Below, one piece after another: positions 5,311-23,562 of a stretch of DNA of 32,799 nt. This DNA comes from Muribaculaceae bacterium (GTDB lineage Bacteria > Bacteroidota > Bacteroidia > Bacteroidales > Muribaculaceae), in assembly GCA_017619355.1 (NCBI GenBank), contig JAFZSO010000072.1:1-32799 (forward strand). Direction: 5' to 3'. The stretch's first letter is position 1. Every line of letters starts with the position of its first letter. Both the position numbers and the translations under genes were made by a program. The notes beneath the pieces were generated by a model, which saw only the letters and a program-made list of their open reading frames with translations, was not told the origin of the DNA and ran no database searches.

Positions 5311-5350
5311 TTTTACTTGTTTACTGGTTTACTAGTCTACTCGTTTACTA
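5311..5350 (-). repeat. Five tandem 8-bp units covering the stop codon of the M6 protease gene
   Basis: On the plus strand the units are TTTTACTT, GTTTACTG, GTTTACTA, GTCTACTC and GTTTACTA, in perfect 8-bp register. On the minus strand the array begins with the gene's own TAG, directly followed by TAA, and carries stop codons in all three frames. Confidence 0.75.
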
Positions 5351-7537
5351 GATACCGAGGATGAGGTTGATGAGGGCGGTGACGTCGGAGACGTTCACCT
5401 TGCCGTCGCCATTTATGTCGGCACGCTCTTCATCCTTGGGAATGACGCCCAGAATCATGTTGACGAGAGCCGTCACATCGCTCACATTCACTTTTCCGTC
5501 ACCGTTCACATCACCAGAAACAGCTTCTTCTCCAAGGTAATAAAGAGTTATGTCGTCGATGATGAGATTCGAATTCTTGGCTCCTGAAATGCGGTTGACC
5601 TTGAAGCGTATGGGCTGTTTTTCGAGATTGAGATGCCAGCACAGAACCTCTTCGGAATTTGCAGGCACCGACTCGGTGCCAACCGAGGTCCAAGTTTCGC
5701 CTTCATCGGTAGAGTAGAAGAGTTGCAGTTTAGATGCAGAGCCCGATGTGTTTATGGCGTTTAACGTGATTTTGATTGCCTGCAGGTCGACATCGCTGTT
5801 CATGACTAAGCTAGCAGGCAACTGCATTGAAACGGCATGACTGCCATTATAATCCACCACATCGGCTTTGGTGAAGTTCCAAGTGGCGAAATTGCCCTGC
5901 ACACTCTCGGCGTTGGTCGGAAGCCCTGTTTGCATTTGCTCAAAGTCTTCGATCATTGTTAATGGCGGCATATCTTTGACAACATTGAAAGTGATGATTT
6001 TGTTGTCCTCTCTGATGTTGTTTAATCCCAAGGGACAAGATTCTCCCGTCCATGTGATGAGCTCCGGGTAGCTGGAAGAGTTGATATAAGTCACATTTCT
6101 TGAACCTGGGAAGGGAACCTCTCCCGATCCAGGACCCGAAGAGCGAATCAGCTCATAGTAGTTGTGAGCGGGGTCGCAGTTCACTTCGTTGCTCCACCAC
6201 ACTTCTTCGTTGCTGTAGTCAACACGGGTAATCACAAGACCATGTCCTGGCAGAGCAGCATCCCACTTGTTGGGCTGACGATTCTCGAAGAGGAAGAACT
6301 CGTATTCATTGGGCGACTGCATCATGTAGCCCATGTTGCTCTCGTTCAAAGCCTCAAGAATCTTGCTGCCCAACGACAATTCTTCTGGAGTGTCAGTGAA
6401 TCCCAGTTCCACACGCTCCCACAGGCTGTATCCCACTGGTGTGCGTCCGAAGTTAGCGTAACTGCCGCCAGCCATCACGTCCCAATCACCGGGATGGTTG
6501 CTTTCGCCTCCGCTGCTGCTATAGTCGGTGTCGTAAAGGTCGGGAAGCCCAAGCACATGACTAAATTCATGACAAATGGTGCCAATGGCGTTAGGCATAG
6601 TTGCCCCTTGAGATTCCCAGCCATAAATCTCGCACGACGATGCGTAGGTTCCCATTCTTTTGCCGTCATAGATATAGGGTTGTGGCGGCCACCCTGACCA
6701 CCAATCGATCAAGTAGCTCATGTGGGGCCACAGATAACCGCTGTTGTTGCCGCTGTAACTTGATGCATAACCAGCCACCAAGAAGAATACCATGTCGATT
6801 TCGCCATCGTTGTCGGCATCATATTTTGTAAAATCTACTTGAGCATCGATCGAGTCGAGGGCAGCCTTGAAAATATCTCTTGCCTTGTCGTTCCCTTCAA
6901 GGCAGGAGTAGTCGAGATTCACGGGTCCTGCGATATCAAATTCAGGGTCAAACTGCCCCATTGAGTTATCGTAGTAGTAGTCGCGCACACTGCCTGTGCA
7001 CCTCTGAAATTGTCCATTATGGTAAAAACCGGTGTAGTTCGAGGTGTTGCACAGCTGGCTGTAGAAATCGTTGGGGTCTTCCATCAGGAACTGCCTATCG
7101 TTGAAGTTGATAAGAACTATAAGACCGCGGAACAGGCCGTAATCGACGGTTGGCTCCCGATTCTCGCGAATCTTCTCGTCGCGGGTGGCTCGATTCAGTC
7201 GTGCCTGTGTGGTAGCGGCCTTGTCGACAAGGCGCTTCTCGAGCGAAGCCACCATTTGCATCTCATGGGCATCGCGGGCGGCCGGGTCATGCGCCATCAC
7301 TCCAGAGGCCACCAATCCCCCTCTGCCCTTTACGGCATATTCCCATGTGCCCTTGACATTGATGATGGTGTAGCCATCGATGGTGGTATTAAAGTGATAG
7401 AATTCGTCACCAGCCAACTTGAGCTGCAGAGTGGAGCCATCGGGTTGCGTCACATTGACAGGCATGGGATTGGCTGGCTCTGCGTTAGCCACGATGGCAA
7501 TGAGAAATGCCATCAATAAAAAAGTTATTTTTTTCAT
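5348..7537 (-). CDS. Secreted M6-family metalloprotease with dockerin-like tail
   Basis: A 729-residue exported protein with an N-terminal signal peptide (MKKITFLLMAFLIAIVANA). The zinc-protease motif HEFSHVLGLPD is at about residues 323-333, and GDWDVMAGGSY about 25 residues later fits the Met-turn region; both are typical of the M6 (immune inhibitor A-like) family. A DADNDGEID stretch near residue 242 looks like a calcium loop. A beta-rich region follows, then two dockerin-like repeats in the last 55 residues (GDVNGDGKVNVSDVTALVN and ADINGDGKVNVSDVTALIN). Start 7537 is preferred over 7558 because the signal peptide then begins at once. It is the last gene of the GHL10/SusCD locus, 79 bp after a GHL10 gene. 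Function is inferred from family; the natural substrate is unknown. Confidence 0.88.
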   Translation of the reverse strand: MKKITFLLMAFLIAIVANAEPANPMPVNVTQPDGSTLQLKLAGDEFYHFNTTIDGYTIINVKGTWEYAVKGRGGLVASGVMAHDPAARDAHEMQMVASLEKRLVDKAATTQARLNRATRDEKIRENREPTVDYGLFRGLIVLINFNDRQFLMEDPNDFYSQLCNTSNYTGFYHNGQFQRCTGSVRDYYYDNSMGQFDPEFDIAGPVNLDYSCLEGNDKARDIFKAALDSIDAQVDFTKYDADNDGEIDMVFFLVAGYASSYSGNNSGYLWPHMSYLIDWWSGWPPQPYIYDGKRMGTYASSCEIYGWESQGATMPNAIGTICHEFSHVLGLPDLYDTDYSSSGGESNHPGDWDVMAGGSYANFGRTPVGYSLWERVELGFTDTPEELSLGSKILEALNESNMGYMMQSPNEYEFFLFENRQPNKWDAALPGHGLVITRVDYSNEEVWWSNEVNCDPAHNYYELIRSSGPGSGEVPFPGSRNVTYINSSSYPELITWTGESCPLGLNNIREDNKIITFNVVKDMPPLTMIEDFEQMQTGLPTNAESVQGNFATWNFTKADVVDYNGSHAVSMQLPASLVMNSDVDLQAIKITLNAINTSGSASKLQLFYSTDEGETWTSVGTESVPANSEEVLCWHLNLEKQPIRFKVNRISGAKNSNLIIDDITLYYLGEEAVSGDVNGDGKVNVSDVTALVNMILGVIPKDEERADINGDGKVNVSDVTALINLILGI

Positions 7538-7616
7538 GTAATATAGCATTAATGCCACTTAAAAAACAAAATAGTTCTTTGAAACAATTGTATCACTTGC
7601 CTGCATCAAGTCATTC

Positions 7617-10211
7617 TCAAATGACGCCGAGAATGATGTTGATGAGGGCGGTGACGTCGGAGACGTTCACCTTGCCGTTGCCATCAACGTCGGCACGCTC
7701 TTCGTCCTTGGGAATGACGCCCAGAATCATGTTGATGAGGGCGGTGACATCGCTCACGTTCACACGGTCGTTGTTATCGACATCGCCCGTCAACAGCACC
7801 TTGTAGACAAACTGGCGCACGGGCGAATACTCGGTGTACTGCAATGTGCCACCTGTGGCGATGGTGTAGTAAGCAAAACGGCCACGCACATAGTAGGTAC
7901 CGCCATCGGTGAGCCTACCCGTACCGGTTATGTCGCCCAGACGCGGAGAGGCAAAAGTGCCGTCGTCGATGGTACCGCGATAGGAGGTGCGCACTGGGAA
8001 CGACGGACTGCTGCTGATCTCGATGCGCAGCGACTGTGGTCCTTCCTGAGGCTCGAAACTCACCTTGGAGCGATTGGTGAGTGTTAAGCCTTCGGCATCA
8101 GGCACAATATACTCGGGCACGGGGGGAATCACATCGGCCGTCTGCATCTTGATGGCAGGGCTCAGCACCTCGGCTTCGCCCAGACGTGCACGCACACGCA
8201 CATAATAGGTGGCACCACCCGCCAGGCGGTACTGCGGTATCTCGAAGACGGGTTCATTGCTGGTGGCGGTATAGGCCAGGCCAGCAAAGTTCGACACCAG
8301 CGACATCTCTAACTGATATTGGGTGCCAGCTGACGCCTGTGTGCAAGTGATGGTGGGGGTGAGCGACATGCCCGTGGCATTGTCACTGGGCGAGGTGATG
8401 CGCATCACGCCATAGGTGAACTGGCCCACATCGCTCGTGTTCTCATACTGGTTGAGACCACAAGCCGACACTTGCCAATAGTAGGTTCCCTCTTCAAGCC
8501 CCGGCACGCGCGCAATCACATAGCGCGCCGAGTCGAGCTGCACATTGGCCACCAAATCGGTGAGTTCAGCATCACGGAACACACGCAGGGTGTAGTTCAT
8601 GTTACCGGCATCTTCACCGCAAGTCCACTCCAGGTAATTGAGCTCGGTAGTGGCCTCTCCATTTGTGGGGAATACCAGCACAGGCTTAGGAGCCTGCGTG
8701 GCTGTTGCACCCACCTGCAAGGGAGCATACTCGTTCTCCCAACGGTCGAGAATGGTCACGGCGAACTCATGTCCCGACGCATAGCTTTCGGGAATGGTGA
8801 ATGAGGGCGAATAACGCACTCCGAGAATGTATTGGGGCTGACACTTGAAGGAGGCAAGGTCAATCGAATCGGGAATGGCATAGATCACATAACGCACATT
8901 GGGAATGGAATCCCACACGAGTTCATTGCCATTGCGTTCCAGACTGGTAACGGTGCCATAGGTCTGGTCGGGTTGCATCCAAGCCACAGCCGGACTGAGC
9001 GAAGGCGTGGTATAGACATTCTCCTTCAGGTAATGACGCAGCTGCTTGGTCTTGCCATCGAGCTTGCCCGAGAGGTTTCGCCAAGTGCTGTACTTGAAAT
9101 AGACCATGCCATAGATGCCGCTCTTCATGGCATCGCGCATGATGTGCACCTGGTTCACATACTCGTCGAGGTTCCAGTTCGAGCCCTCGGTCATGCGTTC
9201 GACGCAATAGCCACTGATATAGACATGGCGGTTGAACTTCTGCCCTATCTTGCCCCACCACTGGGTCACGCCCGTGTAGGTCTGTGATGTGTTCCAATAG
9301 ACCTGCGGCGCCATGAAGTCGATGGTGCCACGCGATATCCACGCCATGGGGTCGCTGAAAATCTGGTTATACTGCCAGTCACTGCCCGGACTCGGGTCCA
9401 CGCCATACTGTGCAGCCACCGACGGGCTTGAGCAAGCCACACCAGCCGGACCAATGCCGAAACGCACCCAGGGCTTGGTGTTCTTGACCATCTCGTTCAC
9501 GTCGTGAACCATCATGTTCACGTTTTCACGGCGCCAGTCGCCCTGCGACATGGTACCGCCCTCGCGACGATAGGCATTGTAGAGCGCCGAGTCGAGGTCC
9601 ATCGAGGCACCGTCCTGGTTATAGAAGTAGTCGTCGAACACCAGACCGTCGCAGTCATACTTCGTGATAATGTCCTGACACACGTCGACAATGCGCTGAC
9701 GCACCTCGGGCAAGCCAGGGTTGAGCACGGTCTCGTAGTCGTCCTGCATGAGCCACTCGGGGTGGGTATAGACGTAGTCGAGTTCGCTCTGGCCCCAGAG
9801 TCCAGCCGACTTGGAGGCATAGCGATAGGGATTGACCCAGGCATAAATCTCGATGCCACGCTTGTGTCCCTCCTCGATGAGATAGGCAAAGGGGTCGAAG
9901 TAAGGAGCCCTTCCACGCTCGCCGCTCACCAGGTTTGACCAGGGCTCGTAGGCCGAGTCATAATAGGCGTCGCACATGGCACGCACATGAAAGTAGATGG
10001 CATTCATGTTGTTGACCATGAGGGTGTCGAGCAGCTTCTGGCAAGCCAGCCTCATGGTGGGAGCATTGCGCTCGGTGATGGCGCCTGAAGGCCAGTCGCT
10101 CACATAGGCACTCATCCACACACCGCGCTGCTCACGCTTGACCTGCGTTTGCGCAGGCATCAGCAGCACCGACATGATTGCCAAGATTATAAAGGTAGTG
10201 AATTTCTTCAT
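7617..10211 (-). CDS. Secreted GHL10-family glycosidase-like protein with dockerin-like tail
   Basis: An 864-residue protein with a signal peptide (MKKFTTFIILAIMSVLLMPAQTQ) and a GHL10 (PF02638-type) TIM-barrel over about residues 25-390. Family blocks seen: RGVWMSAYVSDWPSG, HVRAMCDAYYDSAYEPWS, YAWVNPYRY, CDGLVFDDYFY, FGIGPAGVA, SDWQYNQIFSDP and FMAPQVYW. The Asp pair in FDDYF is a good candidate for active-site acids. Fibronectin-like segments follow (three or so, to about residue 800), then two dockerin-like repeats. E. coli DigH, a GHL10 member, cleaves peptidoglycan glycan strands; other members are uncharacterised, so the substrate here is open. It lies 97 bp after the PKD lipoprotein gene, with a hairpin in the gap. 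Confidence 0.88.
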   Translation of the reverse strand: MKKFTTFIILAIMSVLLMPAQTQVKREQRGVWMSAYVSDWPSGAITERNAPTMRLACQKLLDTLMVNNMNAIYFHVRAMCDAYYDSAYEPWSNLVSGERGRAPYFDPFAYLIEEGHKRGIEIYAWVNPYRYASKSAGLWGQSELDYVYTHPEWLMQDDYETVLNPGLPEVRQRIVDVCQDIITKYDCDGLVFDDYFYNQDGASMDLDSALYNAYRREGGTMSQGDWRRENVNMMVHDVNEMVKNTKPWVRFGIGPAGVACSSPSVAAQYGVDPSPGSDWQYNQIFSDPMAWISRGTIDFMAPQVYWNTSQTYTGVTQWWGKIGQKFNRHVYISGYCVERMTEGSNWNLDEYVNQVHIMRDAMKSGIYGMVYFKYSTWRNLSGKLDGKTKQLRHYLKENVYTTPSLSPAVAWMQPDQTYGTVTSLERNGNELVWDSIPNVRYVIYAIPDSIDLASFKCQPQYILGVRYSPSFTIPESYASGHEFAVTILDRWENEYAPLQVGATATQAPKPVLVFPTNGEATTELNYLEWTCGEDAGNMNYTLRVFRDAELTDLVANVQLDSARYVIARVPGLEEGTYYWQVSACGLNQYENTSDVGQFTYGVMRITSPSDNATGMSLTPTITCTQASAGTQYQLEMSLVSNFAGLAYTATSNEPVFEIPQYRLAGGATYYVRVRARLGEAEVLSPAIKMQTADVIPPVPEYIVPDAEGLTLTNRSKVSFEPQEGPQSLRIEISSSPSFPVRTSYRGTIDDGTFASPRLGDITGTGRLTDGGTYYVRGRFAYYTIATGGTLQYTEYSPVRQFVYKVLLTGDVDNNDRVNVSDVTALINMILGVIPKDEERADVDGNGKVNVSDVTALINIILGVI

Positions 10212-10231
10212 CTCTTCTTTTAGTTTTTCAA

Positions 10232-10265
10232 GAAAGCCACGACCTATTGCTACGCCGTGGCTTTC
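10232..10265 (-). terminator. Strong hairpin between the PKD lipoprotein gene and the GHL10 gene
   Basis: GAAAGCCACG (10232-10241) pairs perfectly with CGTGGCTTTC (10256-10265) over 14 bases. It lies 43 bases after the stop of the upstream gene. On the minus strand no T run follows, so it may be an attenuating or mRNA-stabilising hairpin rather than a full terminator. Confidence 0.5.
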
Positions 10266-10308
10266 AGTGAGTTATCATGTTGCGACAATCAAGTTGCCGC
10301 CACAGTTA

Positions 10309-12042
10309 TCAGAACAGGTTCGTGAGGCGGGGATTGATGGTCACGCCCAGAATCTTGGCGTTGGTCGCACCCGTGTTCACGACTGTCATAGTCTCGGGGT
10401 TGTAGTAATACAGACCCGAGGTGTAGTTCTTCTCATCCTTGGCGGCACGGAAACCGAAGTACACAAAGTGTGTCTGCTTGTCAACAACCATCTGCGTGGT
10501 GTAAACACCCTCAGCATCGGTGGTGTTGATGGGATCGGCCTCCATGTGGATGAACTTCGTGTATTTGTCATAGGTCACAGTAGCGTCGTATGACGGCAGC
10601 GGATAATGACCGAAGCCCACATCGGGGGTAGTGCCCTTGGTCATCCACACATAGAGGTTGCCCAGTTCCTCATCGAGGGTGAAGCCACGCGGCTGTGTGG
10701 TTTCGAGCACAATGGGGTGCGGAATGGGAATACCTGCGCCCGTCTTGCCAATGTCGCCCGAATTGAAGCGATAAATGCCATAGCCCGAGTAGTTCTTGCC
10801 CCACCAGAACATATTGTTCTTGTCGATGTAGATACCGGTGTGGATCGCACCGTAAGAGAGGCCATTACCATAGTATGACAGCTGGTTGTTGATGACGAAG
10901 TAGCCAGCCGAGCTGTTGAAGTTGGTCGATTCCTTCTCGCCACGAGTGTCGAGCGGCAAGCGGCGGATACCTGTGTTACGGTCGGTGTAATAGAGATAAT
11001 CGCCATTAGCACAGCCCTGGAACGGGTCGTTGAAGGCCTGCTGTCCCACATTGGTGACCATGATGTCGACATTTGCACCGTCGGCACTCATCACGGTAAT
11101 CTTGCCGTCGCCCAGGGTGCTGGTCTCGTCGTTCACATAGTAATACTGCTTGCCACAGTCAAGAATGTAGATGTTATCCTGCTCAAGTGTGGTAGAGTCG
11201 GTCTTTGTAGCCTGCACAGCAAACACAAGCTGTGTGGGCATGTTGCCCGAGTTCACGCCCATGTCGAAGGGCATGTTCTTGGTGCCAGCCGGCAACTTCG
11301 ACATATCCACCAGCTTGTAGGCCTTGATGTTGCCGCCATACTCGGCATAATAGAGCGTGGGAGCGGGTACTGAACTACCCACCTGCACATTCACATAAGA
11401 GTCTTCCAGACGACGGTTCTCGCCATTGATGTCGAACCAGGTCTGCAACTCAATCTTCTGCGAACCGATGTTCTTGAACGTGAGTTCGCCGGGGTTATCG
11501 ATAGTGCCATCGGCGTGCGAGAAGCCTTCAAAGGTGGTAATCTCGGTGCCATTAGCAGTCTTGGTTCCCTCGGGGAACTTCCACACATACTTGCAAATGA
11601 GGTTCTCGGGGTTAGGCAACTCGATGTCGAGAAGCACCGTCACATCGTTGATGACAATGATGGGAGCCGATTGTTCAGCAACACTGAGCACAGGTGCAAT
11701 GTCGTAGATGAGCAGCGGATAGGTGCGGCTGCCCACGCCATCGACATTCAGCGTAACCTGGTAGATGCCTGCCTTGTCGAACTTGTGCTTGGGGTTGGCA
11801 TCGGTGGAAGTGGTTCCATCGCCAAAGTCCCAAGTCACAGCACCCGACTTGGCCGACGTGTTATTGAACTGAATGGTCGACACCACATAGAAGTCTAACT
11901 GATACTGGTCACCATCAACATTATAGGTGAAGTCAACATCCTTGGTCGGGAAATTGCCATACGCAGGATCCTTGTCGGTGCAAGCCACCAGCGCGAGCAA
12001 AGCCACAGCCAGCATACTGAATTTATGAATCATCTTCTTCAT
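10309..12042 (-). CDS. Surface lipoprotein with PKD domain (SusE/F position)
   Basis: A 577-residue lipoprotein: signal peptide MKKMIHKFSMLAVALLALVAC with the lipid cysteine at residue 21. A PKD domain follows at about residues 30-110, marked by VTWDFGDGTTS and HKFDKAGIYQVTLNVDG. The remaining 450 residues are rich in beta-strand-like text with repeated Tyr/Gly/Asp motifs (DYLYYTDRNTGIRRL, TQPRGFTLDEELGNLYVWM) that suggest a beta-propeller. No catalytic motif is seen. Start 12042 drops three residues that precede the signal peptide. It is the fourth gene after susC and likely binds substrate at the cell surface beside SusD. The function is inferred from position and domains. Confidence 0.75.
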   Translation of the reverse strand: MKKMIHKFSMLAVALLALVACTDKDPAYGNFPTKDVDFTYNVDGDQYQLDFYVVSTIQFNNTSAKSGAVTWDFGDGTTSTDANPKHKFDKAGIYQVTLNVDGVGSRTYPLLIYDIAPVLSVAEQSAPIIVINDVTVLLDIELPNPENLICKYVWKFPEGTKTANGTEITTFEGFSHADGTIDNPGELTFKNIGSQKIELQTWFDINGENRRLEDSYVNVQVGSSVPAPTLYYAEYGGNIKAYKLVDMSKLPAGTKNMPFDMGVNSGNMPTQLVFAVQATKTDSTTLEQDNIYILDCGKQYYYVNDETSTLGDGKITVMSADGANVDIMVTNVGQQAFNDPFQGCANGDYLYYTDRNTGIRRLPLDTRGEKESTNFNSSAGYFVINNQLSYYGNGLSYGAIHTGIYIDKNNMFWWGKNYSGYGIYRFNSGDIGKTGAGIPIPHPIVLETTQPRGFTLDEELGNLYVWMTKGTTPDVGFGHYPLPSYDATVTYDKYTKFIHMEADPINTTDAEGVYTTQMVVDKQTHFVYFGFRAAKDEKNYTSGLYYYNPETMTVVNTGATNAKILGVTINPRLTNLF

Positions 12043-12054
12043 AGTCGTCAATGT

Positions 12055-13101
12055 TTAGTTGAGGGTAATTTCTTTGTTATCGGTAGTCACACCCATCTTC
12101 CCTGCCGAGTCATAAACACGGAATTCAGGACGCAGGAAGTAGGTTCGAGAGAACGAAACAGCATAGTTCTTATTGGCCGAGTCATAAATCCAGCTCGTGA
12201 AAGGAATGAGGCTGATGAGATCTTTCCAATAAGGCATATACTCACGGCGCACCGTGGTGATGCGGCCGCCAATGTCGTCGCTGTAACGGCTGAAGAGCCA
12301 CTGGCTTGATCCATACACCGGATACACGTTCACACCCTGAGGTGCGTCGGCTTCGGTAGCAATCTCGTGATAGATGGCAGTGCCCGACTCAGAGACCGTG
12401 GTGTAGTAATAATGGTCAATCTCATCGGTAGTGAACCAAGCATTCGACTTATCGGCAGTCTCGGTCACAGTGGGGAACGAGACATTGTGCTTGGCGTTCA
12501 TCTGCTGGAACTGCTCCTCGGTAAACGCATAGTTGATATACACGTTACGCAAGTCGTTATAGTACAAGCTGTCTTTTGTGAGCGCATTGATCAGGTAGCT
12601 CACAAACTGCTCCTGGAAGGTCGAGGGATAGTAGGAATCAAATTTCTCCTGATCCCATTCGGCAGGGGTAACCCAAATCACAGGCGAAAGCGTGCGCGAG
12701 GTGGCAAAAGAGTCGGTCAGCACAAATTCATAGCCATCCCACACGGCATCGCTATGCTTGTACTCGGCCATCTTCTGCATGCTGCGAACGGTGTCGGTCA
12801 CAGAAACCGTCTTGGTGTAAGACAGAGCCGTGGTGAGCTTGCTGGTGGCGGCAGCACTCTGCTGACGCTTGACCAGGGCCCACACTTCGCTGCGGTCGAT
12901 GGTATTTTCGCCCGAGGTGTAATACTTTCCTTTAAAGGTTGCATAAGCACCGGCCTTGACCACGGTAGAGTTCTGCTCCCAGTCGACGGTGGGCAGCACC
13001 TGTCCTATCTCCATGTGATCGGCAAAGAGGTCATGATTGGCACAAGAAGTCATCAAGCCCAAAGTGAGTGCCAAAGCACCTAATATTTTATAAATCTTCA
13101 T
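12055..13101 (-). CDS. Lipoprotein of unknown fold, third gene after SusC (SusE/F position)
   Basis: A 348-residue protein with a lipoprotein signal (MKIYKILGALALTLGLMTSC, cysteine 20). I do not recognise a family in the mature part. It is rich in Trp, Tyr, Ser and Thr, with no evident catalytic motif or repeats. The start at 13101 is chosen because the signal peptide begins there and because it clears the upstream susD-like stop by 29 bp; the longer frame overlaps susD. It ends 12 bp before the PKD lipoprotein. By position it is an accessory substrate-binding lipoprotein of the SusC/SusD complex. Confidence 0.7.
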   Translation of the reverse strand: MKIYKILGALALTLGLMTSCANHDLFADHMEIGQVLPTVDWEQNSTVVKAGAYATFKGKYYTSGENTIDRSEVWALVKRQQSAAATSKLTTALSYTKTVSVTDTVRSMQKMAEYKHSDAVWDGYEFVLTDSFATSRTLSPVIWVTPAEWDQEKFDSYYPSTFQEQFVSYLINALTKDSLYYNDLRNVYINYAFTEEQFQQMNAKHNVSFPTVTETADKSNAWFTTDEIDHYYYTTVSESGTAIYHEIATEADAPQGVNVYPVYGSSQWLFSRYSDDIGGRITTVRREYMPYWKDLISLIPFTSWIYDSANKNYAVSFSRTYFLRPEFRVYDSAGKMGVTTDNKEITLN

Positions 13102-15064: not shown

Positions 15065-18000
15065 TTAGAACGTTGCTTTAAGTGTGAAATTGAAACTGCG
15101 CGAAACGGGCACGTTGTAGTTATCGATACCCATGCCGCCGGTACCACCGCTCACTGCAGCCAGAATGGCGGGATCGTTGCCCGAATACTTGGTGAGCAGG
15201 AAGAGGTTGCGACCCGTGAAAGTGGCGCTCAGACCCTTCACAGCCCAAGTCTTCTTGAAGAAGTGTGAGAAGTCGTAACCCAGGGTCACATAGCTCAAGC
15301 GGATGTAAGAGCCATCTTCGATGAAGTTCGACGAAACGGTGCTGAAGTAGGTGGCGATGAAGTTCTGGTCGAGAATGATGGGAGTGGTGTTCTTCACATA
15401 GGTCATCTCACCATCGGGGCCGGGAACTTCCTGCACACCGTTGAAGATCACTTCGCGGTTGCGATAGCGGTCATACCAGCGGGCCATGCCGTTAGTGATG
15501 AGGCTGCGGCCTGTCACATTCACGACATCACCGCCACAGCGGCCATCGAACAGGAACGAGAGTGTTGCATGCTTGTAACGGAAGGTTGAGCCGAGACCCA
15601 TGAGGAAGTCGGGCTCACGGTTACCGATGTAAATACCCTTGGCAGGGTCGATTACGGGATAACCGTTCTCGTCACAAATCACATTACCGTTAGGATCGCG
15701 GCGATAGTCCTTACCCGAGATACCGGTAGAAGAACCGTTGAGTCGGGCCACGGGGAAGATATCGCCATATTGCGTACCTTGAATTTCAATAATATCATCA
15801 GGCAGTTTCTTCACGCGACCGCGGTTGAACGAGGTGTTGAGCGTGATGGTCCAGTCGAAGTCGGCAGTCTTGAAGATGTCCTGTGCCAGAGTGGCCTCAA
15901 CACCATAGTTCTCGATGGTACCCTCGTTACGGGTCTGGAGAATGGTACCTGAAGCCGGCGACACGCGCACCGACACAATCTGGTTGTCGACGGTGGTCGA
16001 GTAGTAGGCAACATCAAGACGGGTGCGCTGGTTGAAGAAGCGCAGGTCGGCACCGATCTCCCACGAACTTGTCATCTCAGGCTCCAGCACAATGGCGCGG
16101 GAGATGGTGGGGTCAATACCATAACCGCCGTCGGGGAACAGTGTCCACTGCTTGTAGGTGTCGGTAAACAGGTAGGCGGGACTGTCCTTACCCACCTTTG
16201 CCCAGTTACCACGCAACTTACCATAGGAGAACCAGCTATTCGACAGGTTGAAGAGTTCACTGAAGATCACACCTGCGGTCACTGAAGGATAGAAGTAGGT
16301 GGGGTCGACCTGTTTGAAGCGTGACGAGCCATCGTAACGGCCGGTCACTGACAATTGTGCCATGCCCTTATAGTCGAAGCGGAGTTCGCCAAAGTAACCA
16401 TACTTGTTCCACTTGCTGTGGTAGAGGCTGGGGTGATTGGCAATGAGCAGGTCACCATTAGTGAAGTCGGTGTTCATGAAGCTGTAGAAGTCGCCGCTGA
16501 GCTGGAAGTGCTCACCATAGATCGATGCCTCATAACTGTTGCTCTCCTTATATTCAATACCAAACAGGGCATTGAAACCATAATCTTTTGCAAATGTTTT
16601 CTTGTAGGTGGCGAGGAACTGAGCCGTGAACTGCTCGCCGCGCGACGGCTGGAAGCTATACCAGCCGAAGAGGCTCTGGCTGTCGCTCAAAGCCTGCTGC
16701 AGATCGGGATCGGTCGGATCGTGGAAGTCCTCGTCATAGAAGCGGGGCACGCCATAAGCCTCATAGGTGCTGTGACCCTTGTCATAACCCACCTTGCCGG
16801 TGAAGACGAGGTCGGTGATGGGCTCGTAAGAGATCTGGCCATTGAGCATCACACGGCTGCTCTTGGTCTCGCTCTTGTCGTGGTAGCGACCATAATAGGG
16901 CGAAACGCCGGCATTGATGCGCTCACGGTCGGTCATGATGTCCCAGTTCTCATAGCGGGCACGCCAGTTGACGTGACCTTCAAGGGTTTCATAGTCGCTC
17001 ATGTTCTTGTTGATGCCCCAGTTGTAGATGGTCGACATCGAATTACCGAAGCCGCGCGACTTAGAGTCGACATAGTTCATCGAGAACTGAATGTTCACCT
17101 GCTTGGAGGGGTTGAATGCGCTCTTGAGGAAGACGGTGAGCTGTTTCTTGTAGTCCTTGGGTACCACACCTTCGTTATCCATATAGGCTACTGAAGCGTA
17201 GGCATTGAACTTCTCGGTACCACCGCTCACGCTCATGTCATACTTCTGAAGCAGACCGGTGCCCAGGAAGTCGCCAATGTTGTCGTAACGAGTGTCGGTA
17301 GCACTCAACAGTGGGCCCCAACCGCCACTGGAACTGTTCTCCTTGTACATACCCTTGGTACCGGGAATGAACTTAGACTGAATCTTAGGCACACGCATGG
17401 GTGTGTTGATTTCGACCGTAGCCGAACCGGTAACCCTGATGCTGCCATCCTTGCTACCGCTCTTGGTGGTAATCATGATCACACCGTTAGCAGCCTCCTG
17501 GCCATAGAGTGCCGATGCGGCTGCACCTTTCAGAACGGTCATGTTCTCGATGTCGTTAGCGTTGATGTCGGCAAGTGTAGAACCCTTACCGCGAATGGGC
17601 ACACCATCCACAATCATCAACGGCTCATTACTCTGCGAGTTGTTCACCGAAGAAATGGCACGGATAATCACCTGAGTGGATGAGTTGGGCGAGCCACCAC
17701 CCGTTGCCACTTGCAGACCAGCCACCTTACCTTGCAGCGAATTGGCAAAGTTGGTGGTGCTACCGGCCGTCACCTCATCGGCATTAAGAGATTGCACTGC
17801 AAAGTTCAGTTTCTTCTTTTCTTGAGTCTGACCCATTGCGGTGACAACAACTTCGCCGAGCACTTGGGAATTGTCGGTGAGTTCGACGTTGATAACCGAG
17901 CGGTTACCCACCTTCACCGAAACAGGATTCATTCCCACATACGAAATGTCAAGCACGTCATTGTCGTTGACATTGATTGAGTAGCTTCCATCTATGTCGG

Positions 18001-18151
18001 TCGTGGTACCCTTATTGGTGCCATGGATTCTCACCGAGGCGCCAATGATGGGTTCCTTGTCGGTGGCTGATGTGACAACACCGGTCACCGTCCGGGCATA
18101 GCCCAGAACCGAACAGATAGAAACTAACAGAAGCAATAGCTGTTTTCTCAT
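15065..18151 (-). CDS. SusC/RagA-family TonB-dependent outer-membrane transporter
   Basis: A 1028-residue outer-membrane importer. After a signal peptide (MRKQLLLLLVSICSVLGYA) comes a CarboxypepD-regulatory-like domain (about 22-105: VTGVVTSATDKEPIIGAS to DISYVGM), the plug (about 110-235: PLMIVDGVPIRG, VLKGAAASALYGQEAANG, IMITTKSG), then the beta-barrel ending in phenylalanine (FNFTLKATF). There is no N-terminal STN domain, so signalling through an anti-sigma factor is not expected; this agrees with the lack of a FecR-like gene. It is the first gene of the susCD block, with a 214-bp gap upstream. Related RagA/SusC proteins import peptides as well as glycans. Confidence 0.95.
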   Translation of the reverse strand: MRKQLLLLLVSICSVLGYARTVTGVVTSATDKEPIIGASVRIHGTNKGTTTDIDGSYSINVNDNDVLDISYVGMNPVSVKVGNRSVINVELTDNSQVLGEVVVTAMGQTQEKKKLNFAVQSLNADEVTAGSTTNFANSLQGKVAGLQVATGGGSPNSSTQVIIRAISSVNNSQSNEPLMIVDGVPIRGKGSTLADINANDIENMTVLKGAAASALYGQEAANGVIMITTKSGSKDGSIRVTGSATVEINTPMRVPKIQSKFIPGTKGMYKENSSSGGWGPLLSATDTRYDNIGDFLGTGLLQKYDMSVSGGTEKFNAYASVAYMDNEGVVPKDYKKQLTVFLKSAFNPSKQVNIQFSMNYVDSKSRGFGNSMSTIYNWGINKNMSDYETLEGHVNWRARYENWDIMTDRERINAGVSPYYGRYHDKSETKSSRVMLNGQISYEPITDLVFTGKVGYDKGHSTYEAYGVPRFYDEDFHDPTDPDLQQALSDSQSLFGWYSFQPSRGEQFTAQFLATYKKTFAKDYGFNALFGIEYKESNSYEASIYGEHFQLSGDFYSFMNTDFTNGDLLIANHPSLYHSKWNKYGYFGELRFDYKGMAQLSVTGRYDGSSRFKQVDPTYFYPSVTAGVIFSELFNLSNSWFSYGKLRGNWAKVGKDSPAYLFTDTYKQWTLFPDGGYGIDPTISRAIVLEPEMTSSWEIGADLRFFNQRTRLDVAYYSTTVDNQIVSVRVSPASGTILQTRNEGTIENYGVEATLAQDIFKTADFDWTITLNTSFNRGRVKKLPDDIIEIQGTQYGDIFPVARLNGSSTGISGKDYRRDPNGNVICDENGYPVIDPAKGIYIGNREPDFLMGLGSTFRYKHATLSFLFDGRCGGDVVNVTGRSLITNGMARWYDRYRNREVIFNGVQEVPGPDGEMTYVKNTTPIILDQNFIATYFSTVSSNFIEDGSYIRLSYVTLGYDFSHFFKKTWAVKGLSATFTGRNLFLLTKYSGNDPAILAAVSGGTGGMGIDNYNVPVSRSFNFTLKATF

Positions 18152-18291
18152 AAGCGTTGTATTTATTATAATATTAATTGTTTAGAATCAATGGATTAAG
18201 GTTTCACGAAAACTTCCAGCCCAGCCCAAGAAAAAGCTGCTCGTTAAAATAGTGTTTTCTAAGGCTATGCCGAAAGATGTGAAATATGTCA

Positions 18292-18319
18292 CAAACTTAC
18301 AATATTTTTTTTATACAAC
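18292..18319 (-). promoter_or_regulatory. Weak candidate promoter of the SusC operon
   Basis: On the minus strand TAAGTTTG (18299-18292) fits the -7 element TAnnTTTG. The nearest -33-like sequence (GTTG, 18319-18316) is only 16 bp away, which is short. If real, it gives a leader of about 130 bases before susC. Confidence 0.3.
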
Positions 18320-18365
18320 ATATAAAATAATGTGAATTTTTTTATAAAACCCATAAAAAATGTCA

Positions 18366-21300
18366 TCACAAAATTCCCAGAATTATGTTGATGAGCGATG
18401 TGACATCATTCACATTTACATCATCATCATCATTAATGTCGCCACGGAACTGATCGACAGGCAGCACGCCCAGAATCATGTTGATGAGTGCAGTGACATC
18501 AGAAACATTGACTTGGCCATCGCCGTTCACATCACCCTTCAGCGACTTCAGCTCATAGGCTGCCATACCGTTGCCGGGCACATAGAGGTAGAGGTTCTTG
18601 GTAAACTTGTCGCTGCCGGGAGTGACCAGACAGGGAGCGCCCCAGGTGGCACTGTTCAAATCGCCTAAGCCCTGAGCGGGGAAGAGCCACATCTTGCTGA
18701 AGCCTGAGAACTGCCAGTCATTGGCATTCTCTACCAGCATGAACTGATGACCGAGGGGGGCATTAAAGTCGCCATAGCTGTAGAGCAGATAATTGCGGCC
18801 GCCAAAGTCGAATATGGCAGCGCCATTTGCCTGATTGTTGCTGCTTACCAGTTCGCCGGCACTGAAACTGCCGTCGATGGCACCTGTTGCAAAGTTGTAG
18901 CGGGTGAGATAGGTAGCACCACCATTCACATACACAATGTTGTCGCTCACGGGATAGATGCGTGGAGCAATGCCGAATGAGGTATTGGATGACGGAGCAA
19001 AACCAGCCACCTGTTTCACTTCAGTGGCTGTCACATTGCCGTTAGTGATGGTCCAGCGAATCAGTTCGGTGCCACTGGCTGTGGCAGCAAACACCTTGAA
19101 GTTGCCGCTGCTCACATCGCCCAGCACATTGCAGTGGTCGATGCGCGGCTTTGATGTCACATTATTAGCGGTGAGTCGGGCACGCAAGGTGGCATTGCCC
19201 GTGTTCTCGTCGATCTGGAAAATCATGAGCGGTGTGCTGCCAATGTTGAGCGACAGGTTGGTCACCACCAGATTTCCGGCAGCATCGGTCAGCACATCGT
19301 TAGCGGGATAGTAAGGAACGCTCACTTCGGCCGCAAGCTGCACATCTTGGATGCGCTCGCCGGTAGTGGCATTATACACGCGCAGATAGGTGGCAGCCGT
19401 ACTGCTTCCCTCCACCCTGCCCGCCTGATAAATGCGGTTGCCCTTCACGGCAAAACCGCGATTCATGAGGCCGTCGCTGTCGAAAGTGATATTGTCGTAC
19501 TCGCTTTTCACCGAACGCACCCACAGGTTGTTCAGCTTCAAGCCGTGCTGCATCGTATAGGAGTTGTTGTCGATGTCTTTTTTGATGACATAACCTGGCT
19601 CGGTCTCTCCCACAGGAATCGAAGTGACCGTGAAACTGCGTGAAGATGTGACAGCCTCGGTGCAGTAACGGGCATTGGTTGCCACACGCCAGTAGAAGGT
19701 GCCCTTGCCCAGGATGCCCACCACCATGGTGTGATGCATAGAGCCTCCTGTTTCGCTCACATCGGTGCCGGTATATACAATCGACTGGAAATTGCGGTCG
19801 CTCGCCACCTCCACACGGTAACTGTCGGCATTCACCTTGGTGAACACAAAATCAAAGTTATCAGTGATTTCGGCACCATCAGCAGGCGACACAAGCGTGG
19901 TGAGAGGTGCCGATGTGCGCTCAGGCGAAGTGAATGTGGCAACATCGGAGTAGCAGTCGAGATAGCCGCTCTGCCTTGTAGCCACACGCCAGTAATAGGT
20001 TTTCGATGATTCCAGTGTATCAAGGTCGAGGGACACATTGTTCGTCGTCAGATTTCTTTCTTCCAAGATAATATTGCTGAAGTCGGGGTCCGACGCCACC
20101 TGAATGCGATAAGTGGCAGCATCGGCAGCCGTCCATGTGAACTGCTGGACCCACTGAGCAACCGCTCCGCCCACAGGCGAAAGAAGTGTCACCTTCTGAG
20201 CATAGTCAACCGGTGCGTCGAGATAGGCGGCATCAAACTCGTTGCCCCAACCATCGACCACGCACACGGCATACCAGTAGCCCGAGGTATATTCAGAAGG
20301 CAACTCAAACGAGGGCGAATAGGTCACGCCTATCAGGTAGTCGCTCTTGATGCCGTCGAACTTTTGGCTCTGCACCTCATCGGGCGACATCCCGTCGGGA
20401 ACGGCATAGACCGAATAGCGAATCAGCGGCTGATCGACAGCAGTCCACGACAGCTCTCCATCGTTTAATTCCAGATTTTCAGGTGCATTGAAGTTCAATT
20501 TGGGTTTCCAAGTCATAGGCGGATTCAGCGCCTTGTGGGTAAACAAGGTTGAAGCAAGGTAATCGGCAAGACCCGAACAGGCAGGACCGTCGATGTATTT
20601 AGCCGAGTAGAAGTTCACACCGGGAGCGTTGTCCAGGTTGTAGTCGCGACTATACTGAATCTGCTGGCATATCTCTTGCCAGTCGGCCAGGGTATTGGTA
20701 CTTTCCATGAAATAGATATTATGGCTCGCATAGTGATGACGGCCATAGTGATTAGCAATGTAGCTCCACCATTGCGTGAGCGGACCGAAGGGATTGGTCG
20801 AGTGATTGGTCTTCCAGTAGAGCTGTGGCGAGATATAGTCGATAGTACCCTCTTCGAGCCATGCCAGCGGGTCACTGTAAATCTGGTTATACTGCCAGTC
20901 GCTACCCGTGGGGCAAGGTGTCACGCCATGAGCGCCCGCACTTGTGCTTGCAGTGCCTGCCACACCGGCAGGACCAATACCAAATTTCACATAGGGTTTG
21001 GTTTCCTGCACCATATCATACATATCCTGCACCATCAGGTTCACATTATGCCGGCGCCAGTCGGCTATGGTCATGCTCGTGCCGCTCTCGGCCCACAGGT
21101 CGTAGTCGGGTGCAGTGTTGTTAGTGGGCGTGCCACCTCCAGGATAGAAGTAGTCGTCGAAGATGATGCCGTCGATGTCATAGTTCTGAATCATCTCCTT
21201 GCACACCTTCACCAAGTGGTCACGCGAACCTTTCAAACCAGGATTGAACACCACATATTTATCAACCTGCATGAGCAGTCCTGAACTCTTCATCGCCAAG

Positions 21301-21740
21301 TCTTGAGGGGTGTTACAGTCGTTACCGTAGTTGTTGCTGAAGCGATAGGGATTCACCCAGGCATGGCACTCCAGACCGCGCTTGTGGCACTCCTCAACGG
21401 CAAATTCCAGGGGATCCCATCCGGGGTCCACACCGCGTGTGCCGCTCACATAACTCGAGAATGGCTCGTAACTCGAGTGGTAAAGAGCATCGGCCATGGG
21501 GCGCACTTGCAGGCATATGCCGTTCATATTAGCCTTCACAAAGCCATCGAGCAGGTCGGTCAGCTGCTTCTTCTGATTGGCTATCACAGTGGCCGAGGTT
21601 CCTCGGGTCCGAGGCCAGTCAATGTTCGACACTGTGGCAACCCACACCGTGCGCACTTCACGCTTCTGAGCCTCTTGAGCCCTCAATGAAAGCGGGAAAA
21701 AGAGCGTAGCCAGAACTGCCCAAATAGTTAATTTTCTCAT
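18366..21740 (-). CDS. Large secreted GHL10-family glycosidase-like protein with propeller-like region and dockerin-like tail
   Basis: A 1124-residue protein with a signal peptide (MRKLTIWAVLATLFFPLSLRA). GHL10 barrel at about residues 25-400: REVRTVWVATVSNIDWP, LQVRPMADALYHSSYEP, HAWVNPYRFS, IDGIIFDDYFYPGG, VKFGIGPAGVAG, SDWQYNQIYSDPLAWLEEG and ISPQLYW. Several fibronectin-like segments follow (about 420-720), recognisable by repeated YYWRVAT/FYWRVAT. Then comes a region of about 330 residues resembling a DUF4623-type propeller (RVYNATTGERIQDVQL, LMIFQIDENTGNATL). Two dockerin-like repeats end the protein. It lies 41 bp after the upstream GHL10 gene, so they form an operon. The propeller distinguishes it from the other two GHL10 proteins. 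Confidence 0.88.
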   Translation of the reverse strand: MRKLTIWAVLATLFFPLSLRAQEAQKREVRTVWVATVSNIDWPRTRGTSATVIANQKKQLTDLLDGFVKANMNGICLQVRPMADALYHSSYEPFSSYVSGTRGVDPGWDPLEFAVEECHKRGLECHAWVNPYRFSNNYGNDCNTPQDLAMKSSGLLMQVDKYVVFNPGLKGSRDHLVKVCKEMIQNYDIDGIIFDDYFYPGGGTPTNNTAPDYDLWAESGTSMTIADWRRHNVNLMVQDMYDMVQETKPYVKFGIGPAGVAGTASTSAGAHGVTPCPTGSDWQYNQIYSDPLAWLEEGTIDYISPQLYWKTNHSTNPFGPLTQWWSYIANHYGRHHYASHNIYFMESTNTLADWQEICQQIQYSRDYNLDNAPGVNFYSAKYIDGPACSGLADYLASTLFTHKALNPPMTWKPKLNFNAPENLELNDGELSWTAVDQPLIRYSVYAVPDGMSPDEVQSQKFDGIKSDYLIGVTYSPSFELPSEYTSGYWYAVCVVDGWGNEFDAAYLDAPVDYAQKVTLLSPVGGAVAQWVQQFTWTAADAATYRIQVASDPDFSNIILEERNLTTNNVSLDLDTLESSKTYYWRVATRQSGYLDCYSDVATFTSPERTSAPLTTLVSPADGAEITDNFDFVFTKVNADSYRVEVASDRNFQSIVYTGTDVSETGGSMHHTMVVGILGKGTFYWRVATNARYCTEAVTSSRSFTVTSIPVGETEPGYVIKKDIDNNSYTMQHGLKLNNLWVRSVKSEYDNITFDSDGLMNRGFAVKGNRIYQAGRVEGSSTAATYLRVYNATTGERIQDVQLAAEVSVPYYPANDVLTDAAGNLVVTNLSLNIGSTPLMIFQIDENTGNATLRARLTANNVTSKPRIDHCNVLGDVSSGNFKVFAATASGTELIRWTITNGNVTATEVKQVAGFAPSSNTSFGIAPRIYPVSDNIVYVNGGATYLTRYNFATGAIDGSFSAGELVSSNNQANGAAIFDFGGRNYLLYSYGDFNAPLGHQFMLVENANDWQFSGFSKMWLFPAQGLGDLNSATWGAPCLVTPGSDKFTKNLYLYVPGNGMAAYELKSLKGDVNGDGQVNVSDVTALINMILGVLPVDQFRGDINDDDDVNVNDVTSLINIILGIL

Positions 21741-21781
21741 AGTCTATGTTAATTATTAAGTTATTGGTTCCTAATTAAGCA

Positions 21782-23494
21782 TCAGTCAACCCCAAGAATA
21801 ATGTTGATGATGAGTGTCACGTCCATCACATCTACGTCATTGTCGCCGTTCACATTGGCGTTATTGTAGTTAAACGGGCTGGGATTCTTGCCCAGGATGT
21901 AGTTAATGACTGTGGTCACATCGTTCACATCCACGCTGCCATCACCATTGGCATCGCCTGGATTTTGCAAGGTAGTGGCCACCTCATATTCGATATTGTA
22001 ACCATCGACCACACTCACTGCATACCAGTAGCCCGTCTGATAGTCTTCAGGAATCGTAAATTCGGGAACATAGGTGACATCGAGCAGATAGTCGCTCAGC
22101 AGTCCGCCATAGGTGGCGCTCTGGGCATCCTGCAGTGTAACAGATTCGGGCACTGCATAGACTACATACTTCACCAGCAGGCCATCCTCGGCAGTCCATT
22201 CAAGGTCTGCTCCGTCGACCGTGAGATTCTGGGGAGCGCCATGTGGTGTTGCATCCTTCCAGGTGAGGGCAGGCACCAGTGCCTTGTGCTGGAACACATT
22301 GGCGAGCAGGTAATCGCCCAGGCCACTCACGCCGCCGTTATCGCCGTTGATATTCTTGGCCGAATAGAGCACAACGCCGGGTGCTTTATCCTTGTTGTAC
22401 TGGCGTGAATATTTGATTTGCTTCACCACATCGGCCCAATTGCTGGTGGTATTGTTGCTTGCCAGGAACGAGATGCTGTGACTCGCATAGTGATGGCGGC
22501 CAAAGTGATTGGCAATGGTGCTCCACCACTGCGTGATGGGGCCAAAGGGATTGGTGCTGTGAGTTGTGGTCCAGTAAATCTGGGGCGACATGTAGTCGAC
22601 CGTGCCGGCATTGTACCAAGCCAGCGGGTCGCTGAAGATGCCATCGTACTGCCAGTCGCTACCCCTGGGGCATGGCGACACGCCATACTGCGAAGCCGAC
22701 TTTCCTGCCACACCTGCCGGCGAGATGCCGAAAAGCACCTCGGGTTTCTCTTCCTGCACCATATTGTAGATGTCAGCCACCATCAGGTTCACATTGTTGC
22801 GACGCCAGTCGGCAAAGGTCATGTCCACATTGCTGTCGTTCCACAGGTCATAGTCGGCCGCAGCACTGGTCGTGGGAATGCCTTCAGGATAAAAATAGTC
22901 GTCAAACACCAGGCCGTCGATGTCATAATTACTCACAATCTCACGGCACACCTTCACGATGTGCTGGCGCACCGAGGGAAGACCTGGATTCAGAATGGTT
23001 GTAGTAGTACCGTTGCTGTTGGTATAGGCCAGCAGCATTCCGGCATTGCGCAACGCATTATCCTGAGGTGTGTTCCAGTTTGAGCCGGTGCTGAAACGGT
23101 ATGGGTTTACCCACGCGTGCAGCTGCATGCCACGCTTGTGGCATTCCTCCACTGCGAAAGCCAGCGGATCCCAGCCGGGGTTGGTACCACGATTGCCGGT
23201 CAGATAACTCGACCAGGGCTCATAACTCGACGGATAGAAGGCATCGCACATGGAGCGCACCTGCAAATACACAGCGTTGAAGTTCTGCGCTTTCAGCTTG
23301 TCGAGCATATCGGTCAGCTCCTTCTTTTGTTTTGTAATCACGGTGCTACTGGTTCCTGCAGTACTAGGCCAGTCGAGGCGCCAAACGGTGGCTATCCAAG
23401 CCGAACGTAACTCTCTCTTTTGCGCTTCAGCAGCGCTAACCGACAACTCCCATGTGAGCATGAGAGCCATCAATATCATCATTATTTTTCTCAT
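21782..23494 (-). CDS. Secreted GHL10-family glycosidase-like protein with dockerin-like tail (compact form)
   Basis: A 570-residue protein and the shortest of the three paralogs. After a signal peptide (MRKIMMILMALMLTWELSVSA) the GHL10 barrel covers about 25-400: RELRSAWIATVWRLDWPS, LQVRSMCDAFYPSSYEPWS, HAWVNPYRFS, IDGLVFDDYFYPEG, VLFGISPAGVAG, SDWQYDGIFSDPLAWYNAG and MSPQIYW. One fibronectin-like segment follows, then two diverged dockerin-like repeats (GDANGDGSVDVNDVTTVIN and NVNGDNDVDVMDVTLIIN). Start 23494 opens the signal peptide. It is first in the locus, directly behind a good promoter. The N-terminal half is close to the 18366-21740 product, which suggests tandem duplication. Confidence 0.88.
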   Translation of the reverse strand: MRKIMMILMALMLTWELSVSAAEAQKRELRSAWIATVWRLDWPSTAGTSSTVITKQKKELTDMLDKLKAQNFNAVYLQVRSMCDAFYPSSYEPWSSYLTGNRGTNPGWDPLAFAVEECHKRGMQLHAWVNPYRFSTGSNWNTPQDNALRNAGMLLAYTNSNGTTTTILNPGLPSVRQHIVKVCREIVSNYDIDGLVFDDYFYPEGIPTTSAAADYDLWNDSNVDMTFADWRRNNVNLMVADIYNMVQEEKPEVLFGISPAGVAGKSASQYGVSPCPRGSDWQYDGIFSDPLAWYNAGTVDYMSPQIYWTTTHSTNPFGPITQWWSTIANHFGRHHYASHSISFLASNNTTSNWADVVKQIKYSRQYNKDKAPGVVLYSAKNINGDNGGVSGLGDYLLANVFQHKALVPALTWKDATPHGAPQNLTVDGADLEWTAEDGLLVKYVVYAVPESVTLQDAQSATYGGLLSDYLLDVTYVPEFTIPEDYQTGYWYAVSVVDGYNIEYEVATTLQNPGDANGDGSVDVNDVTTVINYILGKNPSPFNYNNANVNGDNDVDVMDVTLIINIILGVD

Positions 23495-23530
23495 TTTGAG
23501 ATGCATTAATTGGTTTTTATGATTGCGTTA

Positions 23531-23562
23531 CAAATTTACTCCATTTTTCTCTTTTATACAAA
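23531..23562 (-). promoter_or_regulatory. Candidate promoter of the GHL10/SusCD locus
   Basis: On the minus strand TTTG (23562-23559), 20 bp, then TAAATTTG (23538-23531) matches the Bacteroidota TTTG/TAnnTTTG promoter. Transcription would begin near 23524, about 30 bases before the ATG at 23494. The region around it (23507-23712) is AT-rich and has no gene. Confidence 0.6.

Follow-up and report, generated by a model that had tools for sequence, protein, structure and literature searches.

A SusC/SusD locus with GHL10 enzymes in Muribaculaceae as a candidate outer-membrane part of peptidoglycan scavenging

Introduction

Tannerella forsythia, a relative of the bacterium studied here, salvages N-acetylmuramic acid (MurNAc) from peptidoglycan, and its inner-membrane carriers AmpG and MurT as well as its cytosolic enzymes have been characterised (PMC5388701, PMC7670621). 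The salvage cluster, Tanf_08345-08385, comprises xanthan lyase, gtf, gtf, lytB, ampG, ybbC, murT, murK, and murQ (PMC5388701, PMC7670621), and a related kinase gene lies upstream of it (PMC10465942). Here we analysed a stretch of 32,799 nucleotides (hereafter the window), which is a stretch of one contig (C17) of the 2.63-Mb draft genome (G000, 74 contigs) of a Muribaculaceae bacterium, and which carries a SusC/SusD locus with three genes for GHL10 enzymes. In contrast to the T. forsythia cluster as described, the window locus adds an outer-membrane importer, surface lipoproteins, and GHL10 enzymes. We take lytB and ybbC of T. forsythia to be SpoIID and NamZ, respectively. The row SpoIID-AmpG-NamZ-FAD (flavin adenine dinucleotide) oxidase-MurT-MurK-MurQ, which resembles the T. 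forsythia cluster, is found on another contig (C27) of the same genome and as the second half of gene islands in two genomes of other families (G305 and G549).

The SusCD pair relates the window locus to the BT_2264/BT_2263 complex of Bacteroides thetaiotaomicron. That complex, too, has two extra lipoproteins. BT_2264 (5fq6, from the series 5fq6-5fq8) is the nearest solved chain to SusC of the window (E 3.1e-92). However, the window SusD is only distantly similar to BT_2263 (profile match, E 5.6e-5), and the profiles of the two window lipoproteins, designated lp4 and PKDlp, did not match the lipoproteins of the complex; they found no homologues of BT_2261/BT_2262 in a library in which the presence of these two chains is unconfirmed. 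Clostridioides difficile Cwp19 and Escherichia coli DigH have the same domain as the GHL10 proteins and share most active-site residues with them, with identities to GHL10a and GHL10c of 37-40% for Cwp19 and 31-33% for DigH. We know of neither protein as a member of a SusC/SusD locus. Cwp19 produces anhydromuropeptides from peptidoglycan and is therefore a lytic transglycosylase (PMC6016235). In Caulobacter crescentus, the TonB-dependent receptor CCNA_00455 brings an amino sugar, itself a building block of peptidoglycan, across the outer membrane (PMC13046382). This resembles the role proposed for the window locus, but the sugar described there is N-acetylglucosamine (GlcNAc) and neither MurNAc nor a glycan strand, and the accessible part of that paper names neither SusD nor GHL10; the comparison is by description only.

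We consider it likely, with a probability of about 0.8, that the window locus is the outer-membrane half, for uptake and processing, of a peptidoglycan (MurNAc) scavenging pathway. This reading is based on the gene content, the conservation of SusC-SusD-lp4-PKDlp together with GHL10, the active-site residues of GHL10, the MurNAc genes that lie close by in genomes of other families, and the cluster of such genes in the present genome.

Results

Linkage to MurNAc genes in other families

The locus consists of eight open reading frames (ORFs), all on the minus strand, which span 5348-23506 without any further gene among them and are at most 214 bases apart. They are transcribed in the order GHL10a-GHL10b-SusC-SusD-lp4-PKDlp-GHL10c-M6 protease, and the largest gap (214 bases, AT-rich) lies just before SusC. 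An earlier note, made from the same DNA, had described three GHL10 paralogs, SusC, SusD, two lipoproteins, and a metalloprotease in one uninterrupted direction, and the ORFs and the Pfam and NCBIfam matches agree with this description. Its adjacent SusC and SusD genes are a feature of polysaccharide-utilisation loci of the SusC/SusD type.

A profile of PKDlp was searched against 393 genomes of the order, with up to three candidates scored per genome, and full-length copies may be missed under this limit. Among the 95 genomes with a match, 86 were set aside because their match, at E 2e-15 or weaker, covered the N-terminal PKD region only. The nine full-length matches are the window itself, one genome of the same family, and seven genomes of other families. 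In all seven genomes of other families, GHL10 and a NAGPA phosphodiester glycosidase come after SusC-SusD-lp4-PKDlp, with NAGPA preceding GHL10 in G268 and G432, and five of the seven loci also contain u470, a gene type without a Pfam family. The next genes in G305, G549, G513, G268, and G432 encode a PD40 protein and an Amidase_3 protein (N-acetylmuramoyl-L-alanine amidase); Amidase_3 was assigned by Pfam in four of these and by its own profile in G549, and the other two of the seven, G237 and G548, were read as far as PD40 or NAGPA. Just upstream of SusC in G268, genes for an NlpC/P60 endopeptidase and an enolase-family enzyme are located on the same strand. Enzymes of these two kinds are compatible with muropeptide catabolism.

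MurQ is present in all seven genomes and lies on the same contig as SusC in five of them, at distances of 0.5-41 kb. These five contigs also carry AmpG (five), MurK (five), SpoIID (four), MurT (four), and NamZ (three). In G237, MurK and MurQ share the strand of SusC and lie about 0.5 kb upstream of it, and SpoIID and AmpG follow a few kb further on the opposite strand. In G548, the opposite strand carries AmpG, a MurK-MurQ fusion, and MurT at distances of up to about 11 kb from SusC, with MurQ at about 6 kb; the fusion (L230:9778-11457, minus strand) is a single reading frame of 560 amino acids and adjoins AmpG. G432 has FAD oxidase, NamZ, MurT, an extra GHL10, AmpG, SpoIID, MurK, and MurQ on both strands, no more than about 29 kb from SusC, MurQ being about 28 kb away on the opposite strand. 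In G305 and G549, MurQ is about 38 and 41 kb from SusC, respectively, within one unidirectional run that continues after the locus as PD40-Amidase_3-BadF-type kinase-Golvesin_C protein-metallophosphatase/PQQ protein-GT2-SpoIID-AmpG-NamZ-FAD oxidase-MurT-MurK-MurQ (the Golvesin and metallophosphatase genes of G549 were assigned by size only). The SusCD locus is thus genetically linked to MurNAc-catabolic genes, within 41 kb, in five of the seven genomes outside the family. The earlier proposal of peptidoglycan as the target, GHL10 as the cutter of its glycan, and SusC/SusD as the importer finds support in this linkage and in the retention of GHL10 with SusC/SusD among relatives.

The same neighbours bear on a different substrate. 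The locus might act on another GlcNAc polymer or exopolysaccharide, such as poly-GlcNAc or a teichoic or capsular polymer, given that GHL10 is distantly related to the hydrolase domain of PgaB. GHL10c shows a weak PgaB match (E 0.0011), PgaB is the closest fold of Cwp19 (PMC5765458), and NAGPA releases phosphodiester-linked sugars (PMC12419801). However, MurQ and MurK, which act on the peptidoglycan sugar MurNAc, are found within 41 kb of SusC in five of the seven distant genomes, and Amidase_3 is the family of N-acetylmuramoyl-L-alanine amidases. We therefore regard such a polymer as an improbable substrate.

Conservation of the gene row within the family

When the SusD protein was searched in 198 genomes of the family, 54 genomes gave a match, among them the genome of the window and 14 others of its genus. 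The comparison covered 54 regions in 52 genomes, which are all of the 53 other locus genomes except G048 (G033 and G089 contribute two regions each). Of these regions, 35 have full flanks, in which the sequence extends 5.5 kb or more upstream and 7.5 kb or more downstream of SusD, and 19 do not. We also compared 80 named loci, the best 80 of 135; they overlap with the 54 regions, some lie on short contigs, and they do not count as independent. The closest named relatives of the genome are metagenome-assembled genomes titled Muribaculaceae, Bacteroidales, or Prevotellaceae, many of them derived from ruminants and including Candidatus Sodaliphilus.

SusC is kept in 52 of the 54 regions, and all four genes of SusC-SusD-lp4-PKDlp are present in 49 of the 54 regions and 70 of the 80 named loci. 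A GHL10 gene on the same strand is found in 33 of the 54 regions (27 of the 35 with full flanks), and GHL10 occurs in 55 of the 80 named loci. The conserved unit is SusC-SusD-lp4-PKDlp plus, usually, one GHL10 gene. GHL10 thus stays with SusC/SusD here as in the seven genomes of other families, and the loss of this linkage in relatives, which the earlier note had named as evidence against itself, was not observed. Downstream of GHL10c, one or two u470 genes and NAGPA are common among relatives (u470 or NAGPA in 12/54 regions and 56/80 named loci). In this genus, NAGPA is at times preceded by a CotH gene, and CotH occurs on the same strand in 3/54 regions and 24/80 named loci; in some relatives of the genus, the gene after GHL10 encodes a CotH-family protein that has a dockerin tail (e.g., L098:14403-16043).

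The M6 family metalloprotease of the window (P0001, 5348..7558, minus strand; TIGR03296 of NCBIfam, 170 bits, E 7.9e-50) lies outside the conserved unit. It has a dockerin tail and an intact HExxH motif (HEFSHVLGLPD at residue 330), and its gene lies directly downstream of GHL10c. This position would fit a glycoprotein or mucin locus in which the protease cuts protein and GHL10 cuts the attached glycans, and a GH20 gene upstream of SusC in some relatives (4/54 regions, 18/80 named loci) would agree with it. However, M6 occurs in only one of the 54 other regions, where it is located upstream of SusC, and in none of the 80 named loci, and the neighbours in other families are MurNAc enzymes. Neither the protease as a working part of the locus, as the earlier note had proposed, nor the note's glycoprotein alternative finds support; we rate a glycoprotein or mucin locus as highly improbable. 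The peptidoglycan half of the note's reading has strong genomic support, whereas the protease half does not.

The absence of a standard glycoside hydrolase, stated in the earlier note, is true of the window, whereas some relatives have the GH20 gene mentioned above. As putative carbohydrate-active enzymes, the window locus offers its three GHL10 proteins, and GH20, NAGPA, and Amidase_3 occur in relatives only.

Co-occurrence with MurQ and the MurNAc genes of the genome

Contig C27 of the genome carries the row SpoIID-AmpG-NamZ-FAD oxidase-MurT-MurK-MurQ, and with murT-murK-murQ accompanied by ampG and namZ the genome has a MurTKQ salvage set of the T. forsythia type. The families found on C27 are DUF5009, BadF-type kinase, MurQ (TIGR00274, 306 bits), MFS, NamZ_N, and NamZ_C. 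MurT and MurK fall below the Pfam cut-off, and their names are backed by position and by strong matches to the G305 genes. Contig C42 carries u470-u470-NAGPA-NAGPA-NAGPA and a fourth GHL10 gene, and two further NAGPA genes are located on C64.

Strong MurQ matches (E below 1e-40; the next match is 5e-11) were found in 85 genomes of the family, namely in 51 of the 54 with the locus compared with 34 of the 144 without it (Fisher 9e-21, kinship ignored). At the genus level, counted by hand, the locus occurs in 12 of the 19 genera with MurQ and in none of the 11 without it (p 6e-4, kinship partly handled). Rhamnose isomerase, used as a control, was present in 4/54 genomes with the locus compared with 47/144 without it. 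Because this gene is rarer with the locus, the MurQ association is not general to sugar-catabolic genes, on one control, and lineage effects are seen in both directions. There is no locus genome among the 20 genomes listed without NamZ (7 more are unlisted).

These genes also allow the main rival explanation, namely that the locus serves to reclaim peptidoglycan fragments that the cell itself has shed, and not to feed. MurQ, AmpG, NamZ, and MurT could equally serve turnover of the own wall, and MurQ is present in 34 family genomes that lack the locus. In our judgement, however, a SusC/SusD importer, surface lipoproteins, several tailed secreted enzymes, and the NAGPA genes of many relatives seem to exceed the needs of turnover, and we consider self-recycling unlikely.

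GHL10 proteins

The draft genome contains five GHL10 genes, three of which lie within the 18 kb of the locus; this clustering is not expected by chance. GHL10a (P0008, 574 amino acids; 21782..23506, minus strand) has a signal peptide, a GHL10 domain (Pfam E 3.9e-60), and a dockerin tail. GHL10b (P0007, 1124 amino acids; 18366..21740, minus strand) has a GHL10 domain (E 3e-53), weak Ig-like matches in the middle of the protein, a u470 domain, and a dockerin tail; its residues 723-1065 are a copy of u470 (E 4e-57), which relatives encode as separate genes in the row. GHL10c (P0002, 864 amino acids; 7617..10211, minus strand) has a GHL10 domain (E 1.3e-51) and a dockerin tail, and represents the GHL10 type that is commonest with the locus.

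Among solved structures, Cwp19 (5oq2, E 1.9e-72) is the closest to GHL10a. GHL10 had no CAZy classification at the time of PMC5765458, from which we took a list of 13 active-site positions of Cwp19. The alignment comprised eleven sequences: Cwp19, all five GHL10 proteins of the genome (with those of the window taken as domains), four relatives, and E. coli DigH. Eight of the 13 positions (W36, W127, R132, D195, D196, Y197, Q295, and Y297) are identical in all eleven, and Q77, S250, G328, F367, and S368 are variable. In Cwp19 numbering, GHL10c has H at Q77, G at S250, S at G328, and K at S368; S250 is also G in GHL10b, and G328 is S in all three window proteins. The window proteins keep most active-site residues of the Cwp19/DigH type and are predicted to cleave the glycan strands of peptidoglycan.

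GHL10a and GHL10b are about 64% identical over the domain, whereas GHL10c is 43-46% identical to either, so that the former two are probably a younger pair. In a set of loci that includes the window and counts some genomes twice, GHL10b is the best match of 20 of the 26 GHL10 genes upstream of SusC and GHL10c that of 77 of the 89 not located upstream of SusC. The sister genome G122 keeps GHL10b and GHL10c and has no GHL10 gene beyond GHL10b. A second GHL10 gene upstream of SusC was found in one other region only (L047 of G060). GHL10a and the M6 protease are accessory, being additions of few strains.

The fifth GHL10 gene of the genome (L207, G000:C3:19500-39400) has a GH2 enzyme, an M64 peptidase, and a dockerin-bearing C10 peptidase in its vicinity, and the 20 kb read around it contained no SusC/SusD match.

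SusC, SusD, and the two lipoproteins

SusC (P0006, 15065..18151, minus strand) is a TonB-dependent outer-membrane transporter (SusC/RagA TIGR04056 of NCBIfam, 645 bits) and is followed by the SusD-like lipoprotein (P0005, 13131..15062, minus strand; SusD-like_2, Pfam E 7.8e-22). By sequence inspection, SusD, lp4, and PKDlp have lipoprotein-like signal sequences at their N-termini, and the four enzymes have ordinary ones.

The lipoprotein lp4 (P0004, 12055..13101, minus strand; the ORF opens at 13134, and the likely start is the ATG at 13101) belongs to a family without a name and has nothing above the Pfam cut-off. Its lipobox Cys is invariant in an alignment of 28 sequences. The predicted fold (pLDDT 86.0) has no clear match in the PDB, and the lp4 profile gave zero matches to solved chains. 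PKDlp (P0003, 10309..12042, minus strand; the ORF opens with a TTG at 12051, and the likely start is the ATG at 12042) has a PKD_4 match (E 1e-13), and its profile matched only PKD domains among solved chains. The model is all beta (pLDDT 83.6), with BT1487 (4r5o) as the top PDB match (E 2.9e-8, TM-score only 0.32). PKDlp is probably composed of a PKD part and a beta-propeller, as judged from its matches.

Dockerin tails and neighbouring genes

The dockerin-like tails described in the earlier note are confined to the four enzymes, that is, the three GHL10 proteins and the M6 protein, for which Dockerin_1 is above the Pfam cut-off. Such tails do not mark the locus, for they occur throughout the genome, with at least 140 matches (150 of 255 candidates scored). 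A 690-amino-acid protein (L227:8259-10328) has two cohesin matches (Pfam E 6.9e-18) and a dockerin of its own, and the genome gave one further cohesin match below the cut-off. The dockerin and cohesin set is possibly a cohesin-dockerin system or a general surface tail. To our knowledge, the family has been known for neither. In other families, NAGPA and Amidase_3 carry a sorting tail of the type IX secretion system (T9SS; Por_Secre_tail) where this genus has a dockerin tail (L098, L200, L202, L204, L206, and L231); the T9SS protein SprA is nonetheless present in the genome of the window and in 190 of 198 family genomes.

No sensor-regulator gene is located between the eight genes of the locus, as the earlier note had stated. 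A gene for an extracytoplasmic function (ECF) sigma factor (24060-24581, minus strand) lies 553 bases upstream of the locus, which does not imply membership in it, and a DUF6249 gene lies upstream of the sigma factor gene (both within 24060-25502, minus strand). Further upstream are an esterase with a weak CBM48 match and a PGA_cap family protein (26910-28058 and 28793-29989, minus strand).

Discussion

Several observations weigh against a role of the locus in peptidoglycan scavenging. In two of the seven genomes outside the family (G513 and G268), MurQ is on a contig separate from the locus, and the parts of the window strain are spread over three contigs (C17, C27, and C42), so that the assembly shows no linkage of locus and MurNAc genes. 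Within the family, eight of the 35 full-flank regions lack GHL10, 24 of them lack both u470 and NAGPA, and the genes upstream of SusC are variable (GH20, alpha-amylase, C25 peptidase). Three locus genomes (G029, G048, and G072) lack a strong MurQ match, and the 34 genomes with MurQ and no locus have been mentioned; NamZ, present in 171 of 198 genomes, does not discriminate. DogH, a GHL10 enzyme, acts on starch according to the title of a paper (PMC9967864). AnmK was found in 4 of the 198 family genomes, three of them with the locus, and this near-absence leaves the fate of anhydroMurNAc unexplained if GHL10 acts like Cwp19. T. forsythia is likewise described without AnmK (PMC7670621).

In the scavenging pathway that we propose, GHL10 enzymes at or outside the cell surface would cut the glycan strands of peptidoglycan, which are probably stripped of peptides, because the gene row of five of the seven distant relatives includes an N-acetylmuramoyl-L-alanine amidase; an amidase step ahead of GHL10 is likely where the row holds Amidase_3. 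SusD, lp4, and PKDlp would bind the glycan pieces, and SusC would import them. The steps after SusC are modelled on the characterised genes of T. forsythia: SpoIID and NamZ would trim the imported pieces, AmpG and MurT would carry disaccharide and MurNAc to the cytosol, and MurK and MurQ would convert MurNAc to GlcNAc-6-phosphate and lactate. Lactate is a product of the MurQ step, and as a guess the neighbouring FAD oxidase may oxidise it.

A more tentative extension, which we hold to be possible but doubtful, is that foreign, mainly Gram-positive, walls are dismantled in this way, with NAGPA severing the teichoic-acid linkage, GHL10 cutting the freed strands, and SusC/SusD importing large glycans. 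Wall teichoic acid is tied to MurNAc through a GlcNAc-1-phosphate bond. It is this link that NAGPA, encoded on C42 in the present genome, might cut, as a proposal only; NAGPA frees phosphodiester-linked sugars (PMC12419801).

SusC/SusD loci and the MurTKQ pathway are each known already, and their joining for peptidoglycan is the new part. In the literature searched, which excluded bioRxiv and most subscription papers, we found neither an outer-membrane importer for peptidoglycan or MurNAc salvage nor a SusC/SusD peptidoglycan locus joined to MurTKQ. The accessible parts of papers on phosphodiester glycosidases and DUF2233 (PMC11488536, PMC12419801) and on TonB-dependent uptake of muropeptides or MurNAc (PMC13209645, PMC13046382) do not describe such a locus, and that of the paper on SusD and MurNAc (PMC11658791) is unrelated to one.

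Every gut or rumen contains peptidoglycan in abundance. If foreign walls are indeed dismantled as suggested, peptidoglycan would be a genuine polysaccharide food of Bacteroidales. The SusC/SusD pair tied to MurQ, MurK, and AmpG is a concrete candidate for an outer-membrane importer, which can be deleted, and the proposed pathway would unite GHL10 enzymes, NAGPA proteins, and two lipoprotein families without names in one role. The locus would also mark a class of commensals that may affect the pool of immune-active muropeptides.

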